A stretch of DNA of 49,671 bases from an uncultured Ignavibacteriales bacterium (GTDB lineage Bacteria; Bacteroidota; Ignavibacteria; Ignavibacteriales; Ignavibacteriaceae), in assembly GCA_903929035.1 (NCBI GenBank), contig CAIYTF010000165.1, forward strand, positions 1 through 49,671, in the 5' to 3' direction. A program made the translations under genes and the position numbers. How positions within the stretch are numbered: position 1 is the stretch's first letter; the number at the start of each line of letters is the position of its first letter. Below the pieces are notes generated by a model that saw only the letters and a program-made list of their open reading frames with translations, had not been told where the DNA came from and searched no databases. Below, one piece after another: positions 80-9,967 of this stretch.

Positions 80-1135
80 TTAAGCGGCTTGCCGCTTTTT
101 GACTCTATCTTGCTCTAAAAGCAAGTTGCCTAAACGGTGTAAATTGTATCCTAAAACTCCCAATGCGACATATCGCTTGAATGAGGCTATCCCGTGATCC
201 GGACATCGATTCACCCCGTGATGTTCCAACATATTAATATTCGATTCTACCGCCGAATGTGCTTTGCGCAACGCGATGAATTCAGTGTCGTGTTCTCTTT
301 CGTATTCCGCTTTTGATAGTTTCCCTTTCTTCGGCATCGTTAGAAATATTTTAGTGGCTTCCAATTCCTTGTAATTCTCTTTGCTCCAAAAGCCCTTGTC
401 GAAACTTATACTTCCAATATCATACTTTTCATTTAATTCTTTCGTCATTGGAACAGCAATATCGACATCCTGTTGCTTTTCCATCACGCTATGCATCAAT
501 ATAAATCCGCTTTTTTCCGTTGCTATGGCAGCCTTTAATCCCAATTCTACCGCCCGGTTCGCCTTGCCTTTGCTTATCCATTCGGTGTACGTTTCAAATA
601 TGGAAAACACTTTTTCTTTATGCGGTATCTTTTCTTTCTTCATTACTCGTCTATTGAGCAAATCTATATGTTTATCAAGCATTTGCCTATAATTAGCCCA
701 TTCAATCCATTTTACTTCCTTGTATTCCTCACGGCTTATTTCACCCTCCAGCAAATGCAGTTTCTTGCTTAACTGGCGCGTAGTTACAAGGTATTTACGC
801 GTTGCTTTTTTCATTTTAGAGTCTCTATTCACTCCCCCGCGTTGAGAACTTCTACGAACCAAATCAAATCTGCTTTTCACCGTTGCAAGCAATTGATCTA
901 TTTTTCTCCATCCCTTTATTCCAGGATGCTCCGCCAGCAGCTGCTTGGTCAAGCTCAATGTTTTTCGCGCGGCATCCCACAACAGGTTATAATCCGTTGG
1001 GAAATGAACATTGCTCTCCACCGCGTAGCTGTCTATTTTAACGGCTAAACCTTTCTCCGTTTCATCTCCGGCTTGTTCTTTTTTTTTTAATTTAAGTCCG
1101 TGTTTCACCACTATCTCGTTTATCTCTTTGAGCAT
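80..1135 (-). CDS. ISNCY-family transposase, C-terminal catalytic part (second frame)
   Basis: This frame holds the whole presumed DDE catalytic core of an ISNCY-type transposase. The first acidic residue lies in VDSYAVESNVHFPTD near residue 35, the second in SFDKGFW and the glutamate in HSAVESNINMLEHHG, followed by the conserved FKRYVALGVLGYNL tail. The family protein is normally continuous at about 440-510 residues. Here the N-terminal part is in another frame (1120-1605) and the two overlap by 16 bases. The ATG at 1135 could be a real start, but the sequence reads naturally as a continuation of the upstream frame through a -1 slip at an A-AAA run. Whether that shift is programmed or a mutation cannot be told from the sequence. 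Confidence 0.8.
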   Translation of the reverse strand: MLKEINEIVVKHGLKLKKKEQAGDETEKGLAVKIDSYAVESNVHFPTDYNLLWDAARKTLSLTKQLLAEHPGIKGWRKIDQLLATVKSRFDLVRRSSQRGGVNRDSKMKKATRKYLVTTRQLSKKLHLLEGEISREEYKEVKWIEWANYRQMLDKHIDLLNRRVMKKEKIPHKEKVFSIFETYTEWISKGKANRAVELGLKAAIATEKSGFILMHSVMEKQQDVDIAVPMTKELNEKYDIGSISFDKGFWSKENYKELEATKIFLTMPKKGKLSKAEYEREHDTEFIALRKAHSAVESNINMLEHHGVNRCPDHGIASFKRYVALGVLGYNLHRLGNLLLEQDRVKKRQAA

Positions 1136-1605
1136 TTTCTCACCTTGAGTAAATGAACGTTGTCACGAAGTGCTTGTACGCTGTATTCCTTTTTAACCGC
1201 TCCGAATTTTTCAATGCCCAGCATTGCCCTGACAAGTTCGTCAAAATTCACGATATGTTCCAGCCTGTCATAATTTGTTCCTAACGTCAGCCGTGTTACT
1301 CCGATGACGAGGATTTCCCATAAACTCATTCCGGGACACCCTATTGTTTCCAACTTAATCCCTTTTTCCAAGATATCGAATATTGATTCTCGTAATTCCG
1401 CGTTCCCATAAATATACTGCAATGACCGCATTACTGCCGGCAATTCGTCCCTGCTTTTTGTCGGGATTGGTATTTTCTCTATTGGAAGGCTTCCTATATC
1501 AAGTACTATCCGATCTCGTTGACGCATTTTCGCTTTCCTATTTTTTCTTTTTTCCGAATAATCATCATTTATTACCCAATTTAACTCTTTTTGGCTGCTT
1601 TTCAT
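1120..1605 (-). CDS. ISNCY-family transposase, N-terminal part (first frame)
   Basis: This 161-residue frame starts with a basic stretch and contains a helical DNA-binding-like segment (SIFDILEKGIKLETIGCPGM, then WEILVIGVTRLTLG), as in the N-terminal half of ISNCY-type transposases. It ends in ...LRDNVHLLKVRKCSKR. In related transposases this position runs straight into the LxEIN.LVVK.G sequence that here is found one frame back. It carries no catalytic acidic triad of its own. A frameshifted product joining both frames would be about 512 residues long. Confidence 0.75.
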   Translation of the reverse strand: MKSSQKELNWVINDDYSEKRKNRKAKMRQRDRIVLDIGSLPIEKIPIPTKSRDELPAVMRSLQYIYGNAELRESIFDILEKGIKLETIGCPGMSLWEILVIGVTRLTLGTNYDRLEHIVNFDELVRAMLGIEKFGAVKKEYSVQALRDNVHLLKVRKCSKR

Positions 1606-1635: not shown

Positions 1636-3270
1636 TCATATCTTATCCTTTCTCGTGCAGGCACTACCTAATTTAGCTATTATTTCGGCACGTCTTAAAC
1701 GGGCATTGCTTTCACTCAATGCATCCTGAACTTTTTTACGTTCTGAAATATTTCTTGTAACCCCGATTATTCCAACAGCTGTACCGGATTCATTATACAT
1801 AAGGTCTGAAACTACTTCCGTCCATACAGAAGTTCCATCCTTGCACGGCTGCTCGACCTCAACAGCAGGTGCCGGCATATAAATACCGTTATATGCCGAG
1901 GCAATTCTTTCTTTAATAAGTTTAGCGACCAATTCCCGCGATCCGGGAGAAATTACTTCTTCAAATGACTGCTGCATAATCTCATCAACCGTGAAGCCGC
2001 GCAATTTTTCAACAGATGGGCTTATATAGGTGAATTTACCGGATAAATCCATAGTCCAAATAACATCCAATGAATTATTTGCCAGTCTTTTATAGAGGGT
2101 TTCGCTTTCAACGAGTTTTGCTTCCGCGAGCTTGCGGTCGGAAATATCGCTGATACTTCCAATCAGTGCTGCAGGATTACCATCCGCATCCGGTATAACG
2201 GTGAACTGATCAAGAAGCCATCGGTACTTGCCGTCTTTATGTTTAAAACGGTATTCCAATTGGTGCGCGGTGCCAATAGAAGCGGAAAGAGCATCGGTAA
2301 TTACTCGGTTGACTTCGGCAATATCGTCCGGGTGCATCAGATTTAAAACTGTTTCAAGCGGCAAGGCTCTGAATTCGTCAGGACTATATCCTAAAATCCT
2401 TTTAAGAACGGGACTAAAATAATCGTAGTCGTGGGTTTTTAGATTTCGCTTGTATGATGCAACCAATGAATTTTCAAGCACCTCACGCAGACGAAGCCGG
2501 TTTTCTGCCAGCTCTTTTTCAACGAGTTTACGCCGGGTGACATCACGAACAATGGTAATGATATGCGGGATACCTTTAATAGTCATTATTCTCGCATCTA
2601 AGATATAGACAGCTAACGAAGAATCCTCACCTGGGGACATAACTTCAAAATTCTTGCACGCACCGGCTGCAAAGAGTTTATCGGTAAGTATTTTCGTATC
2701 GGAAGGAGTAATAAAATTGTTGATTTCAAGAATAGATTTCCCGATAATTTCTTCTCTAATATGTCCGGTCAGTTCAGAGAATTCCTCATTAATATCAATA
2801 ATGATTCCATCAGCAAGACGAGTGATTATGGCGGCATTCGGGGAAGTACTGAAAATATTCTCGAACATTTCTTTAGTTGCCCGTAATTCATCAAGTGTTT
2901 TTTTATGCTGCAAAAAAATATGCATTCTTGCAAGGAGTTCATTAGTTTGTATCGGCTGCATTATATAATCAAACGCTCCCGCGGCGAGACCTACTGCCTG
3001 TTCTTCCGGAGAGAACTTAAAAGCGGATGACAGTACAACATACAAATCCTTAGTGGCATCATTTTTTTTAAGCCGTTTGAGTGTTTCAATACCATCAATG
3101 CCGGGCATCATAACATCTATAATGATAATATCAGGTTTTTCTATAACTGCAAGTTCAAGACATTCATATCCAGATGTGCCTGCCACTACTTGATATCCCG
3201 CGGAACTAAGCTTTTTGGAAACAACAAACCGCTTCCCGGGATCATCATCTATTACTAATATTTTTTCCAC
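1636..3270 (-). CDS. Receiver-PAS-PAS-PAS signalling protein, 3' end lost to the insertion sequence
   Basis: The 544-residue product starts with a receiver domain (residues 1-120, phosphoacceptor Asp52 in IIIIDVMMPGIDG). Three PAS/PAC units follow at about 125-255, 260-385 and 390-515, each ending in a typical D.[ST].RK..E helix. The last family-like stretch, ARLRRAEIIAKLG, is the usual beginning of a fourth PAS unit. It then breaks into SACTRKDKI and a stop at the insertion-sequence border. The intact protein probably continued, perhaps to a kinase or GGDEF output. The start is GTG at 3270 with a clear AGAGGTG ribosome site. It lies 22 bases after the DUF1638-like kinase and is likely its receiver partner (inference). 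It probably still makes a protein, but without its output domain. Confidence 0.85.
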   Translation of the reverse strand: MEKILVIDDDPGKRFVVSKKLSSAGYQVVAGTSGYECLELAVIEKPDIIIIDVMMPGIDGIETLKRLKKNDATKDLYVVLSSAFKFSPEEQAVGLAAGAFDYIMQPIQTNELLARMHIFLQHKKTLDELRATKEMFENIFSTSPNAAIITRLADGIIIDINEEFSELTGHIREEIIGKSILEINNFITPSDTKILTDKLFAAGACKNFEVMSPGEDSSLAVYILDARIMTIKGIPHIITIVRDVTRRKLVEKELAENRLRLREVLENSLVASYKRNLKTHDYDYFSPVLKRILGYSPDEFRALPLETVLNLMHPDDIAEVNRVITDALSASIGTAHQLEYRFKHKDGKYRWLLDQFTVIPDADGNPAALIGSISDISDRKLAEAKLVESETLYKRLANNSLDVIWTMDLSGKFTYISPSVEKLRGFTVDEIMQQSFEEVISPGSRELVAKLIKERIASAYNGIYMPAPAVEVEQPCKDGTSVWTEVVSDLMYNESGTAVGIIGVTRNISERKKVQDALSESNARLRRAEIIAKLGSACTRKDKI

Positions 3271-3292
3271 TTATTCACCTCTAAAATTTATA

Positions 3293-5053
3293 TTATTCCT
3301 GAATTATACCGGATTTGATTGGCAGGTTAAAGAAGAATGTACTGCCTATTCCTTCCCTGCTTTCCACCCAAATTTTTCCGCCGTGCTTTTCAACAAATTC
3401 CTTGCATAGTAATAACCCTAACCCTGTACTTGGTTCGTTATCGGTTCCGGTTGTCCGCACGTCTTCACCTAATTTGAATAACTTGTCTAAAATTTTGGGC
3501 GGCATACCTATGCCGGTATCGGTTACTGAAATTTCAACTTTCCTGCCGCTTGCTTCTTTTGCTCTAACAGTGATACTTCCATTTTTCTCTGTAAATTTTA
3601 CGGCGTTCGTTAAAAGATTTCTCAGAATGGTACTAACCATTTTTTCATCGGCAATTATTTTTTGATGTTTAGGAATTTCATCTATAATGGTAATCCCTTT
3701 TTGCAATGCTCGCTGTATGATTGAATCAATGCTTTGCAATAAAACATCGTGCAGGGAGAACTCCATAGGAATAAAACTGATTGACCCTTTCTGTAGCTGT
3801 GCCCACTGCAATAAATTTTCTAACAGCTTATAAATATTGGAAACTGAATCGTACATAGTATTGCAGAATATCGAGATTTCTTCCCCTGAATATTCAGCAC
3901 TATCTTCTGCCATTATTTCAGTAAGCCCCAGCAGACCCTGGAAAGGACTTCTCAAATCGTGCGCGATAATTGATAAGAATTTATCGCGGGCATTTACCGA
4001 TTCTTTTAGTTTTTCCGAATATATTCCTAATTGTTTTTCATTCTCCCTGATAATCCTAAATTTTCTCGCGTTAGCAACTGCAAGCGCGCTGATACGGCTT
4101 ATTATTACAGACATCTCTTTATATTTGCCGAGATACTGAGGAAAAGAGATTCCTATTATATCAAAGATTCCAATTTGTTCTTCATTATGAGACATTATAA
4201 TTTGAAAACTGTTGTCTTCAGGTATAAGAGTATTCCGGTCATCATCTGCTTGTAAACCGGTGTTTTCTTGAAAGGCGTTATCAATCACCGTATATTTAAT
4301 ATTACGCGGAGCAAAAAGAATTTTTATCAGGTGAGAAACTTTTTTGATTATTGCCGTTTCATCATCAAGGTCAACCAAGTTGTTCAGTTCATTGAACGCG
4401 AGGGCATAATCCGCCGAACTCCTCGAAACAGCCGATAATTTTTCATTTATGGAAGTTCTTTCATTTTCAGCTCGCCATTGAAAAATAATTGAATCCAATA
4501 CTAACTTGCAGTGAGATAACCCGATGGGCAATATTTCGTAAGAAAGCCCTGTAAAGTTTGAAAGTGATTCAAGCTGAGGAATAATATTTCCCGGCAGACC
4601 GGTATCAAGGAGCATTATTTTATCGGCGGATTCTTTAAAGAATTTTTTCGCTGTATCCTGATCAAAGCCCCATTCCCTAATGTGTTTAGTGTAGTGCTTC
4701 AGCCATCCGTTTGAAACAAGATAATTTCTTTTCGAGATGTAATGTTCGATAGTTGTCTTGTTTAATAACAGTTCAAATGACTGATCGAGCCGCAGGATTT
4801 CGAAGTTGTTAATTTTATCTGTCTCATTTTTAGGGGCAATAAGGCAGGAACAGCCTATAACTATCATTTTTGAAAATGTATCGCCGCATTCATCAACAAT
4901 TTGAGCTGCTCTTTCCCTGTACCCGAATGCAGCATTACAGCTTGAAGAAAAAACCTTGATTGTCACATCGTGATAATCCCCCGATTTTAGCACGTGGGTA
5001 ATTTCGGGAGCAAAGTAATCGCAGACAATCAGGCAAAGTTTTTTTCCCGTCAC
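3293..5053 (-). CDS. Histidine kinase with N-terminal DUF1638-like domain
   Basis: Residues 1-195 resemble DUF1638: KLCLIVCDYFAPEI at the start, NYLVSNGWL near 110, IMLLDTG near 150, then a SYEILPIGLSHCKLVLDSI end. To my knowledge this uncharacterised domain is met beside corrinoid methyltransferase genes. Residues 225-335 look GAF-like. A complete kinase core follows: H-box with His365 (IIAHDLRSP), N-box near 480 (ILRNLLTNAVKF), G1 DTGIGM near 512 and G2 STGLGL near 543. There is no signal peptide or membrane segment, so it is cytoplasmic. It starts with GTG at 5053, which overlaps the TGA of the MtaA-like gene (GTGA) and has GGAAG upstream, so the two are translationally coupled. I infer that the N-terminal domain senses the state of the two encoded corrinoid-related proteins. 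That link is untested. Confidence 0.85.
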   Translation of the reverse strand: MTGKKLCLIVCDYFAPEITHVLKSGDYHDVTIKVFSSSCNAAFGYRERAAQIVDECGDTFSKMIVIGCSCLIAPKNETDKINNFEILRLDQSFELLLNKTTIEHYISKRNYLVSNGWLKHYTKHIREWGFDQDTAKKFFKESADKIMLLDTGLPGNIIPQLESLSNFTGLSYEILPIGLSHCKLVLDSIIFQWRAENERTSINEKLSAVSRSSADYALAFNELNNLVDLDDETAIIKKVSHLIKILFAPRNIKYTVIDNAFQENTGLQADDDRNTLIPEDNSFQIIMSHNEEQIGIFDIIGISFPQYLGKYKEMSVIISRISALAVANARKFRIIRENEKQLGIYSEKLKESVNARDKFLSIIAHDLRSPFQGLLGLTEIMAEDSAEYSGEEISIFCNTMYDSVSNIYKLLENLLQWAQLQKGSISFIPMEFSLHDVLLQSIDSIIQRALQKGITIIDEIPKHQKIIADEKMVSTILRNLLTNAVKFTEKNGSITVRAKEASGRKVEISVTDTGIGMPPKILDKLFKLGEDVRTTGTDNEPSTGLGLLLCKEFVEKHGGKIWVESREGIGSTFFFNLPIKSGIIQE

Positions 5054-6099
5054 GGGTTACTTCCAATAGGATACCTGCCGTAAGTATGAACTGCTTCCGA
5101 AATAGCAAGCAGAACTTCATCGGGCACCTGAATCGGAATTTCGCCGTGGTTATCGGAAAGAATAAAACCGCCGCCGGGGGCAGCTTTTTCAATAATGTTT
5201 TTTACGTTTTCCGCGGCTTGTTCAGGTGTCCAGCGGCGCATAGTTATTCCGTCCAAATTGCCAAGTACAGTAAGCTTGTTTTTGCAGGCACCTTTTATCA
5301 AACTAATATCTTCAGCAGCACTGACGCCGATTACGGCGGTTCCGGTTTTGGAAACATCATCAATTAGCTGAAGCGAATTTCCGGATGCAAAATGAGTTGC
5401 CGTGGGACCTTTTATTCTCGCGATTGTACGTTTTGCAATTTGAAATCCTGTCTCAAGATATTTTTCTTTGGGAATAATTGATGACGATGATACGGGATCG
5501 AAATAACAGATAGCTGTTGCACCGGCTTCTAATTGAGCGTTTGCCCAATCAACACAGAACTCCTCGTTTACCTGCATAAGCCGGTTAAATAAATCCTCGC
5601 GGTAATACATTAGTTCCAAATATTTATCAAATCCTAACTGCATAACAGGTAATGAAAAGGGAGACATTACAACGCCGATTATTGGAACATCGCTTTTCAC
5701 GGATTCTTTTAGAATCTGTATTGCTTTTAAAACTTTATGAAGAGGTTTCGCGCTTCTTATTTTTGGCGGCAGTAATGTTGAAATATCTTCCAAATTTTTT
5801 ATGAAAGGCAGCCCTGTATTTGGAGGACCATCTTCGGAAAAGATGACCTTTCCGCCAAAGGCTTCTATTTCTAAAGGCGCGTAAAAAAAAGAATAGATGC
5901 AGTCATTCCGGTATTTTTTTAGAATCCTAAGCTGCCCTTCCGCGACATTCTCTGCTTTAGAAAAATACTCTGTAATACTTATGCCTAATTCATTTGCTCC
6001 GTGCATTGTTGCTAACAGGAACAAGGGAACTCTATCCGGTTCTTTATGAGAAAGTGTAGTGAGGACGCGTTCCATTGAAGTCATTTTGGCAGTTTTCAT
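5050..6099 (-). CDS. MtaA/uroporphyrinogen-decarboxylase-like protein
   Basis: The 349-residue protein belongs to the URO-D/MtaA superfamily. It opens with the MERVLTTLSHKEPDRVP motif typical of corrinoid:CoM methyltransferase relatives. In MtaA/MtbA the zinc site is H-x-C plus a late cysteine. Here the equivalents are His236-Phe-Ala238 (ATHFASGN) and His318 (LSDNHGEIP), so both cysteines are missing while the surrounding pattern is kept. It is therefore unlikely to be a classical methylcobamide:CoM transferase, nor HemE, because it sits with a corrinoid protein and not with haem genes. It may bind or remodel the corrinoid, or transfer a methyl group with a different site. Its ATG overlaps the TGA of the corrinoid gene (ATGA), and its own end overlaps the kinase start. 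Confidence 0.85.
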   Translation of the reverse strand: MKTAKMTSMERVLTTLSHKEPDRVPLFLLATMHGANELGISITEYFSKAENVAEGQLRILKKYRNDCIYSFFYAPLEIEAFGGKVIFSEDGPPNTGLPFIKNLEDISTLLPPKIRSAKPLHKVLKAIQILKESVKSDVPIIGVVMSPFSLPVMQLGFDKYLELMYYREDLFNRLMQVNEEFCVDWANAQLEAGATAICYFDPVSSSSIIPKEKYLETGFQIAKRTIARIKGPTATHFASGNSLQLIDDVSKTGTAVIGVSAAEDISLIKGACKNKLTVLGNLDGITMRRWTPEQAAENVKNIIEKAAPGGGFILSDNHGEIPIQVPDEVLLAISEAVHTYGRYPIGSNP

Positions 6100-6734
6100 A
6101 CTGTTTCTCCCATTAGTTTAGTTACAATTTCTAGTGCATCGGCGGAATTTTTCCCCATTGCATACGCGCCCACTTCTATCCAAAGTTCGCTATCAATGCG
6201 GAAAGGTGCACCTCCGACAATAACTTTGACATCGGTACCGGCGAGGTGTTCTGTCAATTTTTTTATTTTTAACGCTGATGGAAGCATAAGGACTGACAGC
6301 AACAATATTTTAACATTATTCTCTTCGACTTTCTTTATTACATCTTCAGTTGTAAGACCATTACCTAAGTCTAACAGCTCGAAACCGCCGGCTCGAAGAG
6401 ATGAATAAATAATCCGTTTACCCAGAATATGAAAATCCTCAAAAACAGCTATTGCCATTGTTGGTTTTCCTTTTCTTTCGGAACTCATAGGCGGCAGTAT
6501 TTTATCGATTAATTCTTCGCATATAATGCCTGCCATATAGACCTGCGACAACGATACATTGCCTGATTCCCAAGCATTCCCGATTCGTTCAAGTGCCTGA
6601 GTGACTAACTCACCTGCAACCTGAATTGAGCTGCCTAATTCTATTGATTTAGCAAATATTTCATCTACTGCCGAACGGTCAACCGTCAGCAAGGCTCGTT
6701 CAAAGCCATCTATTAAAAATCTAAACTTATTCAT
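6096..6734 (-). CDS. Corrinoid (B12)-binding protein of the MtaC/MtmC type
   Basis: The 212-residue protein has the two-part layout of methyltransferase corrinoid proteins. Residues 1-85 are a helical cap domain (VTQALERIGNAWESGNVSLSQVYMAG) and residues 90-212 a Rossmann-like B12 fold. The cobalt-ligand motif DxHxxG is complete: Asp100-Phe-His102-Ile-Leu-Gly105. The later SVLMLPS and VGGAPF loops that hold the nucleotide tail are also present. It is thus likely a functional cobamide carrier in the cytoplasm. It is the first gene of the four-gene operon and has no substrate-specific methyltransferase (MtaB/MttB/MtmB type) beside it. This favours a sensing or unknown methyl-transfer role over catabolism (inference). 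Confidence 0.88.
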   Translation of the reverse strand: MNKFRFLIDGFERALLTVDRSAVDEIFAKSIELGSSIQVAGELVTQALERIGNAWESGNVSLSQVYMAGIICEELIDKILPPMSSERKGKPTMAIAVFEDFHILGKRIIYSSLRAGGFELLDLGNGLTTEDVIKKVEENNVKILLLSVLMLPSALKIKKLTEHLAGTDVKVIVGGAPFRIDSELWIEVGAYAMGKNSADALEIVTKLMGETV

Positions 6735-6808: not shown

Positions 6809-7049
6809 AATAATTTTATGGCTCTATAACGTACAAAATGTAATTCATCACAATGCAAATAAAAATATCGCGTACCTAACGGCACAATTCTGAAAATACA
6901 ATACGCCAACTTATTCAAGTTTTCAAAATTAACCATTTATAATACATTCTAACTGTTTAGGTATCCAAACCGGTAAAATTATCGACAATTTTTGGCTATG
7001 TTAGTAATCAATTTAAATTGCAATGACTTATATAGCCGAAAAGGAAACC

Positions 7050-7136
7050 CCTCACCCTGCCCTCTCCCGAAGGAGAGGGAATTACAATCTATATCATTTC
7101 CCCTCTCCTTATAGGAGAGGGGATTAAGGGGTGAGG
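7050..7136. repeat. Nested palindromic intergenic element (MITE/REP-like)
   Basis: The outer arms CCTCACCC (7050-7057) and GGGTGAGG (7129-7136) are inverted repeats. Inside are two perfect hairpins: CCCTCTCC/GGAGAGGG around a CGAA loop (7060-7079) and CCCCTCTCC/GGAGAGGGG around TTATA (7100-7122). The element is non-coding and sits just downstream of the hybrid kinase stop. There it could also act as a transcription end point or an mRNA 3' stabiliser. Confidence 0.75.
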
Positions 7137-7171
7137 TTGTTGTCTCTTACACCAATCCGAAACGAAACTTG

Positions 7172-9967
7172 CTAACCGATAAAATCCTTTATTTTAAGAA
7201 GTAACTGCGAGCTTTTAAAAGGTTTAGTAAGAAAATCGTTACAGCCGGCTGCGAATGCTTTACGGCGATCCGAGGCAAAGGCGTGCCCTGTTACCGCGAT
7301 AATCGGAATATCTGAATTGATGCTGCCTTTCCGAATTATCTCCGTCAATTCCAAACCATTACACCCGTTTTTGAGTGAGATGTCCATCAATATTAAATCG
7401 AAAGACTTGTACGCGAAAAGGTTAACGGCTTTTTCTACACTATCTGCAATCGCGATATTGTATTCATTTTTAAGAATTGCAGTTACAAAAAATTGATTAG
7501 TTTCATCATCTTCAACAATTAGAATATCGGGTTTCTTACCCTGAATTATTTTTGAAGTATTAATAATTTTTCTTTCAACAGGCACTGTCCTGTTTTCAAG
7601 CTGCTTTATTTTTTGATTATCAAAGCAAATAGTAAATGCTGTTCCTTCATTTTTTTTGCTTTTAACAGAAATGGAAAACCCGCTCAAATCAATAAGTTTT
7701 TTTACAATTGGAAGTCCAAGTCCCAGCCCTTCATAAGGCCGGCTGTAACCTGTATCTTCCTGCAGATATGGTTCAAAAAGATGAGATTGATATTCTTCGG
7801 AAATACCGATTCCGGTATCTGCTATTATAATGCAGAGATTTGATTGATTATCTTTAGCAAGCGTGATGTTTACAGAACCTTCATTCGTAAATTTAAGTGC
7901 ATTATCAATAAGATTCTCGAGAATAGTATTTAAGGCACTGCTGTCAATATAAACTATATCATCATTGTTAGTGGTGGAGATAAAATTTATTTTGAGTAAT
8001 TTTTCGAAAGCATATTTGTTATACTTCGCGACAAGCAATTGCAGCGTTTCAGCGAGAGAGACGGGCACGATGTTATTCGGAAAATCTCCAATCTGCAGGC
8101 GGGAGTAGTTAAGAATCTGTTCAACTGTATTAATCAGCCTTTTCGATGACCGCTTGATGGATGTAAAAATTCTTTGGTCTTGTTCTGATGCCTGCTGCGC
8201 GTAAGTATCGTGAATTAAAGCAGTCATACCCAAGATACCGTTTAACGGGGTTCGAATTTCGTGGGAGATATTTGCAATAAATGCATCTTTCAGATTGTTT
8301 GCTAATTCAGCTTTTTCTTTAGCCACAATCAGCTCCTTAATCATATCTTTTCTTTCAGTGATATCTTCTTCTAATGAAAGATAGTGAGTTATTTCACCAT
8401 TGTCGTTGAAGATTGGCGAAATTAAAGCCGACTCCCAGTAGTCTTCACCATTTTTCTTTTTGTTGTGCAGGTCACCCCGCCATTCCCTGCCTGAAGAAAT
8501 CGTGTTCCAAAGTTCTCTATATACTTCATCGGGCATTTCCCCTGATTTCAGAATACTGGGGTTGCTGCCGATTAATTCATCGAGAGAATAACCTGTTATC
8601 TCGAGAACTTTATGGTTCACGTATTCAATTTTCCCCTTAGCATCTGTTATCATAACAGATGCCGGACTCTGCCTGACAGCCTGAGATAATCGGCGAATTT
8701 CTTTTTCGGCAATATTGCGCTCGGTAACATCCGGCATAAAGTTTAGACAGCATTGCCTGCCTTCAAGTTCTATAATTTCGCTCGATATCAAAAAATCAAA
8801 AATCTTACCGGTTTTCATTCTATATTGAATAGGTTTGTTTTTAATAAAACCATTCTTAAGAATTTCCTCATATAACTGTTTTCTTTGATTGTCATCAACA
8901 CATAGATTCAATTCGGATAAAGTACTGCCTATCACTTCTTCTTTCCGGAAACCGGTTAACTTAATAAATACATCGTTAACATCAATGAATTTACTATCAT
9001 CTAATGAAGTTATAAACATTGCTTCAGGACAAATTATAAATGCCTTAGAAAATTTCTCCTCGCTCTTCTTGAGTTCTTCTTCAGCCTGCTTACGCAGTGT
9101 AATATCGCGGATAAACACGACAATCAAACCGCCGTTAGCGGGCTTATATTGTATCCTGACTTCAACATTAAAAAGTGATCCATCCTTGCGGCGGTGTATA
9201 GTTTCGAAACTGTCTTCAAGAATTGCGGTTATTTTTCGTATATAGGCTTCTGTATCGCGATTGGTTTCTACAACTTCCGGATCAGAGATAGTCATAGACA
9301 TCAATTCATAAGTGCTAAAGCCGCTCATCCTGCAATAGGCTTCATTTACTTCCAATATATTCCCCTGCATATCAACCAGCCAAAAACCGTCCATCGCGGT
9401 CTGAAGAATAGTCCTGTGCAATGCAACACTTTCCTGCAAAGCTATTGCTCCCATATTCTTTTCTTGTTCGGCAGAAGCGCGTTCGGCAATTTCCTCCTGC
9501 AGCTTTAGGTTAACCTCCATCAGCTGCATTGTTCTTTCCTCCACTTTTTGTTCCAGACGCAGGGTTAATTCATTCAATGTTAAATGAAGCTTAACTCTTG
9601 CCAGCACTTCCAAAGTGTTAAACGGTTTGGTAATAAAGTCTAACCCTCCTGCCTCAAAGCCTCGTACCTTTTCCGATGTTTCACCCATAGCACTGATAAA
9701 TAGTACAGGAATTCCTTTGAAATTATCATCGGCTTTCAGACGGCGGCAAACCTCGAATCCATCGATATCAGGCATTATTACATCAAGTAATATTAGGTCG
9801 GGGGCTTTATCTTCCACCAACTGCAATGCTGATAATCCGCAGGAAGCCGTTCGTACGAGGTATCCATTTGTTGTAAGAATATGCTTGAGTATAAGGAGGC
9901 TCGCGGGAGTATCTTCAACAACAAGAATCTCGAACTGTGTTTCCATCTGTTTTTTATCAACAATCAT
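7172..9967 (-). CDS. Hybrid histidine kinase, receiver-PAS-PAS-PAS-kinase-receiver
   Basis: The 931-residue cytoplasmic protein begins with a receiver domain (Asp62 in LILLDVIMPDIDG). A coiled coil (about 125-175) follows, then three PAS/PAC units (about 180-290, 300-415 and 425-540). The kinase core has His569 in NISHEIRTPLNG, an N-box near 690 (ILENLIDNALKF), G1 DTGIGI and G2 GLGLGL near 751. It ends in a second receiver (Asp866 in LILMDIS). Flanking receivers suggest input from another kinase and output through phosphorelay. No transmembrane segment is seen. It has no coupled neighbour. Its closeness to the corrinoid-sensor operon may be coincidental. Confidence 0.92.
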   Translation of the reverse strand: MIVDKKQMETQFEILVVEDTPASLLILKHILTTNGYLVRTASCGLSALQLVEDKAPDLILLDVIMPDIDGFEVCRRLKADDNFKGIPVLFISAMGETSEKVRGFEAGGLDFITKPFNTLEVLARVKLHLTLNELTLRLEQKVEERTMQLMEVNLKLQEEIAERASAEQEKNMGAIALQESVALHRTILQTAMDGFWLVDMQGNILEVNEAYCRMSGFSTYELMSMTISDPEVVETNRDTEAYIRKITAILEDSFETIHRRKDGSLFNVEVRIQYKPANGGLIVVFIRDITLRKQAEEELKKSEEKFSKAFIICPEAMFITSLDDSKFIDVNDVFIKLTGFRKEEVIGSTLSELNLCVDDNQRKQLYEEILKNGFIKNKPIQYRMKTGKIFDFLISSEIIELEGRQCCLNFMPDVTERNIAEKEIRRLSQAVRQSPASVMITDAKGKIEYVNHKVLEITGYSLDELIGSNPSILKSGEMPDEVYRELWNTISSGREWRGDLHNKKKNGEDYWESALISPIFNDNGEITHYLSLEEDITERKDMIKELIVAKEKAELANNLKDAFIANISHEIRTPLNGILGMTALIHDTYAQQASEQDQRIFTSIKRSSKRLINTVEQILNYSRLQIGDFPNNIVPVSLAETLQLLVAKYNKYAFEKLLKINFISTTNNDDIVYIDSSALNTILENLIDNALKFTNEGSVNITLAKDNQSNLCIIIADTGIGISEEYQSHLFEPYLQEDTGYSRPYEGLGLGLPIVKKLIDLSGFSISVKSKKNEGTAFTICFDNQKIKQLENRTVPVERKIINTSKIIQGKKPDILIVEDDETNQFFVTAILKNEYNIAIADSVEKAVNLFAYKSFDLILMDISLKNGCNGLELTEIIRKGSINSDIPIIAVTGHAFASDRRKAFAAGCNDFLTKPFKSSQLLLKIKDFIG

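Follow-up and report, generated by a model that had tools for sequence, protein, structure and literature searches.

A recurrent gene trio of corrinoid protein, URO-D-fold protein and DUF1638 allied to signalling kinases: a candidate cytoplasmic sensor in an uncultured Ignavibacteriales bacterium

Why is a histidine kinase coded back to back with what look like parts of a corrinoid methyl-transfer system? The question is raised by a cluster of minus-strand genes in a 49,671-nucleotide stretch of DNA (the window), which is one complete contig of the 3.36 Mb, 222-contig genome of an uncultured Ignavibacteriales bacterium. An earlier reading made from the letters alone (the sequence-only reading) placed four open reading frames (ORFs) there (6734-6096, 6099-5050, 5053-3293 and 3270-1636), coding for a corrinoid-binding protein, an MtaA/URO-D-like protein, a cytoplasmic kinase with a DUF1638-like N-terminus and a receiver-PAS protein, and proposed that they form a corrinoid- or methyl-dependent sensor. 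We verified all four frames at these positions and, directly in the sequence, the ATGA overlap that joins the corrinoid and URO-D genes, the GTGA overlap that joins the URO-D and kinase genes, and the 22-base gap from the end of the kinase gene to the receiver-PAS gene. Our analysis suggests that the first three of these genes are probably a corrinoid methyl-transfer trio repurposed as the cytoplasmic sensory input of a two-component system. Their features are as follows.

6096..6734, minus strand: corrinoid (B12-binding) protein, 212 residues, cap and Rossmann domain (PF02607, PF02310)
6420..6437, minus strand: D-F-H-I-L-G (codons 100-105), motif predicted to supply the lower ligand of cobalt (H102) (sequence, alignments)
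5050..6099, minus strand: URO-D/MtaA-fold protein, 349 residues, without the MtaA zinc triad (PF01208, TIGR01463, 4ay7, Foldseek)
5386..5394, minus strand: codons 236-238, H-F-A, at the positions where MtaA has its HxC zinc ligands (alignments)
5146..5148, minus strand: codon 318, His, at the position of MtaA's third zinc ligand, a Cys (alignments)
3293..5053, minus strand: soluble DUF1638-histidine kinase, 586 residues (HisKA, HATPase_c, catalytic motifs, orthologous fusions in L002, L092 and L093)
4487..5044, minus strand: predicted DUF1638 domain, residues 4-189 (leave-out profile; orthologues over the Pfam cut-off)
3785..3991, minus strand: HisKA domain, residues 355-423 (Pfam)
3314..3649, minus strand: HATPase_c domain, residues 469-580 (Pfam)

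Is this grouping a local accident? A survey searched 395 genomes of the phylum, 390 of the class and 164 of the order, and the neighbourhoods were then inspected. The three genes recur, always in the order corrinoid protein, URO-D, DUF1638, at 13 sensor-type loci (window, L002, L012, L013, L025, L026, L058, L059, L061, L092, L093, L094 and L095) in 12 genomes, the window's and 11 others. Because of this recurrence the block is more than chance. All 13 loci adjoin sensory PAS or kinase genes; the trio is associated with signalling kinases. Locus L002, found via the kinase N-terminus in a Bacteroidetes metagenome-assembled genome (MAG) from Lake Pavin, has the same gene order as the window, with identities to it of 60% in the corrinoid protein, 75% in the URO-D protein and 46% in the DUF1638 domain.

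The form of the link to the kinase varies. DUF1638 is fused to HisKA-HATPase at four sensor loci (window, L002, L092 and L093), and all four fusions lie beside corrinoid and URO-D genes. The sequence-only reading had asked for such a tabulation of neighbours and had held that a lack of co-occurrence would refute it; every genome in which this kinase type was found has the corrinoid and URO-D genes. At seven other sensor loci the DUF1638 gene overlaps a kinase gene by 4-20 bases, namely by the four bases ATGA in L013 and L025 and by about 8-20 bases, varying with the chosen start codon, in L026, L058, L059, L061 and L095. The L025 kinase is of another class, missed by the kinase profile and recognised by eye, and at L013 two further genes, for a PAS protein and a chemoreceptor, lie upstream. 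At L094 the ORF after DUF1638 is a PAS array, and the contig ends before any kinase core. The DUF1638 of L012 has an extra domain and no kinase; upstream, about 130 bases separate the end of a PAS4-GAF-kinase gene from the corrinoid gene. The surroundings of that trio (L012:161-18984, genome G374), with several kinases, CheB/CheR proteins and a periplasmic binding protein, form an unusual signalling island. No relatives were found in viral contigs or plasmids.

Sorting the DUF1638 loci by gene neighbourhood set these 13 apart from 16 other loci or contig fragments (L024, L045-L057, L060 and L062) with an enzymatic setting. RamA is present in 14 of the 16, the remaining two being cut by contig ends; a homocysteine S-methyltransferase (L049, PF02574) or MtaB (L057, PF12176) is among the partners, and in eight the URO-D carries HNC...SSGCDIP, one of them being cut before the last Cys. 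No enzymatic locus (0 of 16) has a kinase within its operon, giving a split by kinase with a Fisher p of ~1.5e-8, a value that treats related loci as independent and is uncorrected for kinship. Conversely, no genes for RamA, a known methyltransferase, a second methyltransferase or a folate enzyme were seen beside the sensor loci, and RamA (PF14574), the activase expected in a complete corrinoid methyltransferase system, was found nowhere in the window's genome. Genomes G071 and G598 each have one sensor and one enzymatic set, and G724 has two sensor sets of different subtypes. Among the enzymatic loci, L024 and L045-L056 combine a RamA-linked DUF1638, a corrinoid protein and a zinc-type URO-D, with a homocysteine S-methyltransferase where checked (L049), an arrangement that suggests split corrinoid methionine synthases within the phylum. 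L057:7444-15362 (G598) is a methanol-type cluster of MtaB, corrinoid protein, RamA-like activase and DUF1638, with a four-PAS array gene, without a kinase domain, directly upstream.

From the nine sensor loci found first, a tree was built for each of the three proteins, and all return the same three subtypes: window, L002 and L012; L013, L061 and L059; L025, L026 and L058. The sensor URO-Ds form one clade (support 94/92), as do the sensor DUF1638s (99/97). The corrinoid tree gives the same triplets, with unreliable deep branches and L059 loosely placed with L013 and L061. As read from these trees, the corrinoid protein, the zinc-less URO-D and DUF1638 travel and diversify together.

What have the individual proteins kept of their presumed ancestry? 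The corrinoid protein matches B12-binding (E 5.6e-16) and B12-binding_2 (E 1.9e-6) in Pfam, and its D100-F-H102-I-L-G105 is an intact DxHxxG. The sequence fits the earlier description as a corrinoid-binding protein, with the B12-binding_2 cap, the B12-binding domain and the motif of the MtaC/MtbC/MetH-module type all present. All nine aligned sensor copies keep this motif intact, and it can be read in the four copies found later; among solved structures, methylamine corrinoid proteins are the closest relatives. At a site where the corrinoid proteins of methyltransferases carry Tyr or Phe, sensor subtypes 1 and 2 have Trp; subtype 3 has no Trp. The photocobilin motif is Trp61...Glu71-His72 (PMC10979010). 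The Glu-His pair of CarH and photocobilins is absent from all aligned sensor copies, and the window protein has the Trp but not the Glu-His of the Trp-x9-Glu-His motif. Elsewhere in the same genome, on contig C18, a separate 217-residue B12-binding protein (L014:6804-7457, plus strand) has the full CarH-type Trp-x9-Glu-His; its gene directly precedes ABC-transporter (Mla-like) genes, and it may be a light sensor in the same organism.

The URO-D protein has fared differently. The URO-D half of its earlier assignment holds, with a PF01208 match (E 1.8e-62), 4ay7 as best solved relative and Foldseek matches of its predicted model to HemE and MtaA; the model is moderate (pLDDT 61, pTM 0.65) and served for fold assignment only. 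The MtaA half does not, the scores against TIGR01463 mtaA_cmuA (126 bits, cut-off 235) and the NCBIfam MtaA equivalog (102 bits, cut-off 400) lying well below threshold. The zinc ligands of MtaA, His-x-Cys ... Cys, compared by position in an alignment to MtaA (4ay7), are replaced in the window by HxA...H. Not one of the 13 sensor copies keeps the full set: subtype 1 has His-Ala-His at the three positions, subtype 2 has His-Gly-Asn or something similar that likewise includes no Cys, and subtype 3 has Tyr-Cys-none. The RamA-linked URO-Ds retain His-Cys and, where complete, the last Cys. Because these ligands are lost, the sensor URO-D protein is, on the alignment, not an MtaA-type thiol methyltransferase, and the idea that it reads or removes the methyl group, taken in the MtaA sense, finds no support. 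By analogy it need not be inert, since CdmB, a substrate:corrinoid methyltransferase I of the URO-D superfamily, is active without zinc (PMC13222342). Nor can it be asserted, as it had been, that no substrate methyltransferase is present, when zinc-free URO-D-fold proteins can be just that.

The kinase has HisKA (E 3.1e-8) and HATPase_c (E 2.9e-28) domains in Pfam, with the H-box in the former and the N, D and G boxes in the latter, as expected of a two-component kinase. No match to PF07796 (DUF1638) was obtained in it or anywhere in its genome. PF07796 scores over its cut-off in the fused orthologues of L002 (38.4 bits), L092 (31.5) and L093 (37.6) and in the unfused one of L012 (33.8), and a leave-out profile made from RamA-linked and subtype-2/3 DUF1638s only, without the window's own subtype, matches residues 4-189 of the window kinase (E 4.5e-11, Z=1000). 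Profile searches that failed to find DUF1638 would have counted against the sequence-only reading; on these matches we treat the N-terminus as a divergent member of DUF1638, one that the profile of enzymatic (RamA-linked) DUF1638s alone does not reach (E 0.055). Three Cys positions are widely kept in the DUF1638 alignment, with Ser at the third in the window and in its closest fused relatives, L092 and L093; the conserved Cys may form a metal site or a redox switch. A profile search found no DUF1638 structure in the PDB. By eye the stretch separating DUF1638 from the kinase core resembles a GAF domain, but we assign it to no family: Pfam GAF_2 did not reach its cut-off in relatives, and profile comparison did not align the three subtypes with one another there.

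How far does the system extend beyond the trio? The minus-strand order of transcription is hybrid kinase, corrinoid protein, URO-D-fold protein, DUF1638 kinase and REC-PAS3 ORF, and the flanking features are these.

7172..9967, minus strand: hybrid kinase with the domains REC-PAS3-HisKA-HATPase-REC, coded upstream of the trio and probably its partner in a phosphorelay (Pfam; match to the L002 hybrid kinase)
1636..3270, minus strand: REC-PAS3 ORF deprived of its 3' end by an insertion sequence, membership doubtful (Pfam; insertion-sequence boundary near 1666-1675)
80..1605, minus strand: ISNCY-type transposase ORFs interrupting the REC-PAS gene (NF033593, E 5e-96; genome copies)

A hybrid kinase also precedes the L002 trio, at 17 bases, and its best match in the window is the 7172-9967 protein (34% over 759 residues). 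The latter probably belongs to the system as a phosphorelay partner, and the four-gene boundary drawn earlier, which omitted it, was probably set too narrowly. The 437-base gap between it and the corrinoid gene contains an inverted-repeat-like stretch (7040-7150; ctctcctataaggagagggg ... ccctctccttcgggagagggc) resembling a small repeat element. At the other end, the receiver-PAS ORF and its 22-base gap are as described, but the gene is not intact, because five near-identical ISNCY-type copies at other sites of the genome agree with the window as far as bases 1666-1675. The ORF therefore ends in about ten residues of insertion-sequence DNA, its original C-terminus gone, with the transposase directly downstream. 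The lost 3' part was not found at contigs sharing the insertion-sequence ends, which sit in other genes or repeats. Since no counterpart was seen at L002, L092 or L093, nor found at the other sensor loci, the gene is not to be counted as a defining member, and the proposal that the kinase reports to this truncated, non-conserved neighbour is not borne out.

Could the trio be an enzyme supplied with its own regulator? The URO-D protein would then be a zinc-free, CdmB-like substrate:corrinoid methyltransferase for a methylated or halogenated compound, turned over by the trio, and the kinase would control the genes for its use. CdmB and related URO-D methyltransferases I (PMC13222342) do pair a URO-D fold free of zinc with a corrinoid protein, CdmBCA differing in that it comes without a kinase, and the URO-D and corrinoid proteins of the trio appear intact except for the zinc ligands. 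However, CdmB is only a distant relative (E 1.6e-5 to the trio profile). Together with the missing RamA, second methyltransferase and folate enzyme, and with a DUF1638-kinase fusion that argues for sensing, this makes a working enzyme unlikely. We also regard as quite improbable a light sensor, in which an alkyl-cobalamin on the corrinoid protein would be photolysed and the change passed to the kinase. CarH/LitR and the photocobilins (PMC10979010) are likewise B12-binding proteins serving signalling, and the Trp of subtypes 1 and 2 recalls them. However, the Glu-His pair is absent, subtype 3 lacks the Trp, and a separate protein in the genome has the full motif; their output is fused, whereas the window has a separate kinase, a DUF1638 partner and a URO-D protein that light sensing leaves unexplained.

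Little more can be said for a gas or redox sensor, in which a small molecule (O2, NO, CO, sulfide or similar) would bind to the cobalt or oxidise it without any carbon group taking part, the URO-D barrel being a scaffold. The lost zinc site and absent RamA fit a non-catalytic cobalt centre, and PAS domains and the chemoreceptor beside L013 fit such signalling, but the 340-residue barrel is more conserved between window and L002 than either the corrinoid protein or DUF1638, which suggests that its pocket matters, and we rate this explanation as low as light sensing. That the kinase genes are merely adjacent and function apart from the trio is most improbable: histidine kinases are numerous, and the window alone codes several, but chance would have to account for fusions at four loci, gene overlaps at seven, an association at all 13 and trees that agree.

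We therefore favour the repurposing of the trio as a sensory input, because 13 loci share one order, with four fusions and seven overlaps, while 16 enzymatic loci have no operon kinase; because the subtypes are congruent in three trees, DxHxxG is kept while zinc ligands are lost, and RamA is absent; and because DUF1638 is tied genetically to corrinoid protein and RamA in methionine synthesis (PMC5764234, PMC12478193). How such a module would work we infer: the corrinoid would be bound, the URO-D protein would recognise a ligand, the cobalt would change state and the kinase would be controlled by it. The corrinoid protein would hold a cobalt corrinoid via His102. The URO-D barrel would dock on it and present or recognise a small ligand, which may be methylated or react with cobalt in some other way. 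Cobalt would thereby come to be methyl-Co(III), Co(II) or ligand-bound, and its state would alter docking of the corrinoid protein on DUF1638, which would relay the change to HisKA, and phosphate would pass to a receiver, possibly in the 7172-9967 hybrid kinase. The simplest reading is that DUF1638 contacts corrinoid proteins, and that this contact has been wired to a kinase in the sensor branch. A corrinoid- or methyl-dependent sensor, as first proposed, fits the lack of RamA in the genome and of RamA and known methyltransferases beside the sensor loci, but the signal itself we can only infer. More tentatively, the trio may represent a new receptor class, a corrinoid methyl-transfer complex without turnover, whose cobalt state, set by the ligand of the zinc-less URO-D, is read by DUF1638 and passed to the kinase.

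Several observations weigh against a sensory role. The survey covered one phylum and one outside MAG, and the trio is sparse, occurring in 8 of the 164 genomes of the order. No conserved output gene was found across the sensor loci. As RamA is absent, the known activase is not there to re-reduce a cob(II)alamin state. The third Cys, present in most relatives, is missing from the DUF1638 of the window, and an AlphaFold2 model of the DUF1638 region (two sequences) was discarded at a mean pLDDT of 44, leaving no useful model.

How does this arrangement compare with known systems? As in the MtaA/MtbA and MtaC/MtbC systems, a DxHxxG corrinoid protein is coded with a URO-D-fold partner; unlike them, the trio of the window has no zinc ligands, RamA or recognised substrate methyltransferase, and is fused or coupled to a kinase. 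MsmS and RdmS sense via heme or thiols. These Methanosarcina kinases (PMC11784639) are, like that of the window, associated with corrinoid methyltransferase systems, but differ in having no H-box, no DUF1638 and no dedicated corrinoid protein. The split methionine synthases of Phaeobacter (PGA1_c13340, PMC5764234) and Ruegeria (SPO2162, PMC12478193) likewise place DUF1638 beside a corrinoid protein, although there DUF1638 is separate and RamA present, whereas in the window DUF1638 is the kinase input and RamA is missing. Methionine synthesis in Phaeobacter depends on DUF1638 together with the corrinoid protein and a RamA-like one, the authors making no specific proposal for what DUF1638 does (PMC5764234); in Ruegeria the DUF1638 protein is more abundant along with the corrinoid system (PMC12478193). 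No description of the corrinoid/URO-D/DUF1638-kinase arrangement was found in the literature searched.

B12-based sensing is known mainly from light receptors, and the regulation of methyl-corrinoid systems is largely unexplored, as stated for its own organism in PMC13222342. If our reading is true, a sensor made from methyl-transfer machinery would detect methylated compounds or redox state by a new route. The kinase fusion provides a handle on DUF1638, as a read-out of kinase activity could directly reveal any recognition of corrinoid proteins by DUF1638 and the cobalt state in which it occurs. Were the new receptor class to prove true, DUF1638 would be a general reader of the state of corrinoid proteins, in enzymes and sensors alike.

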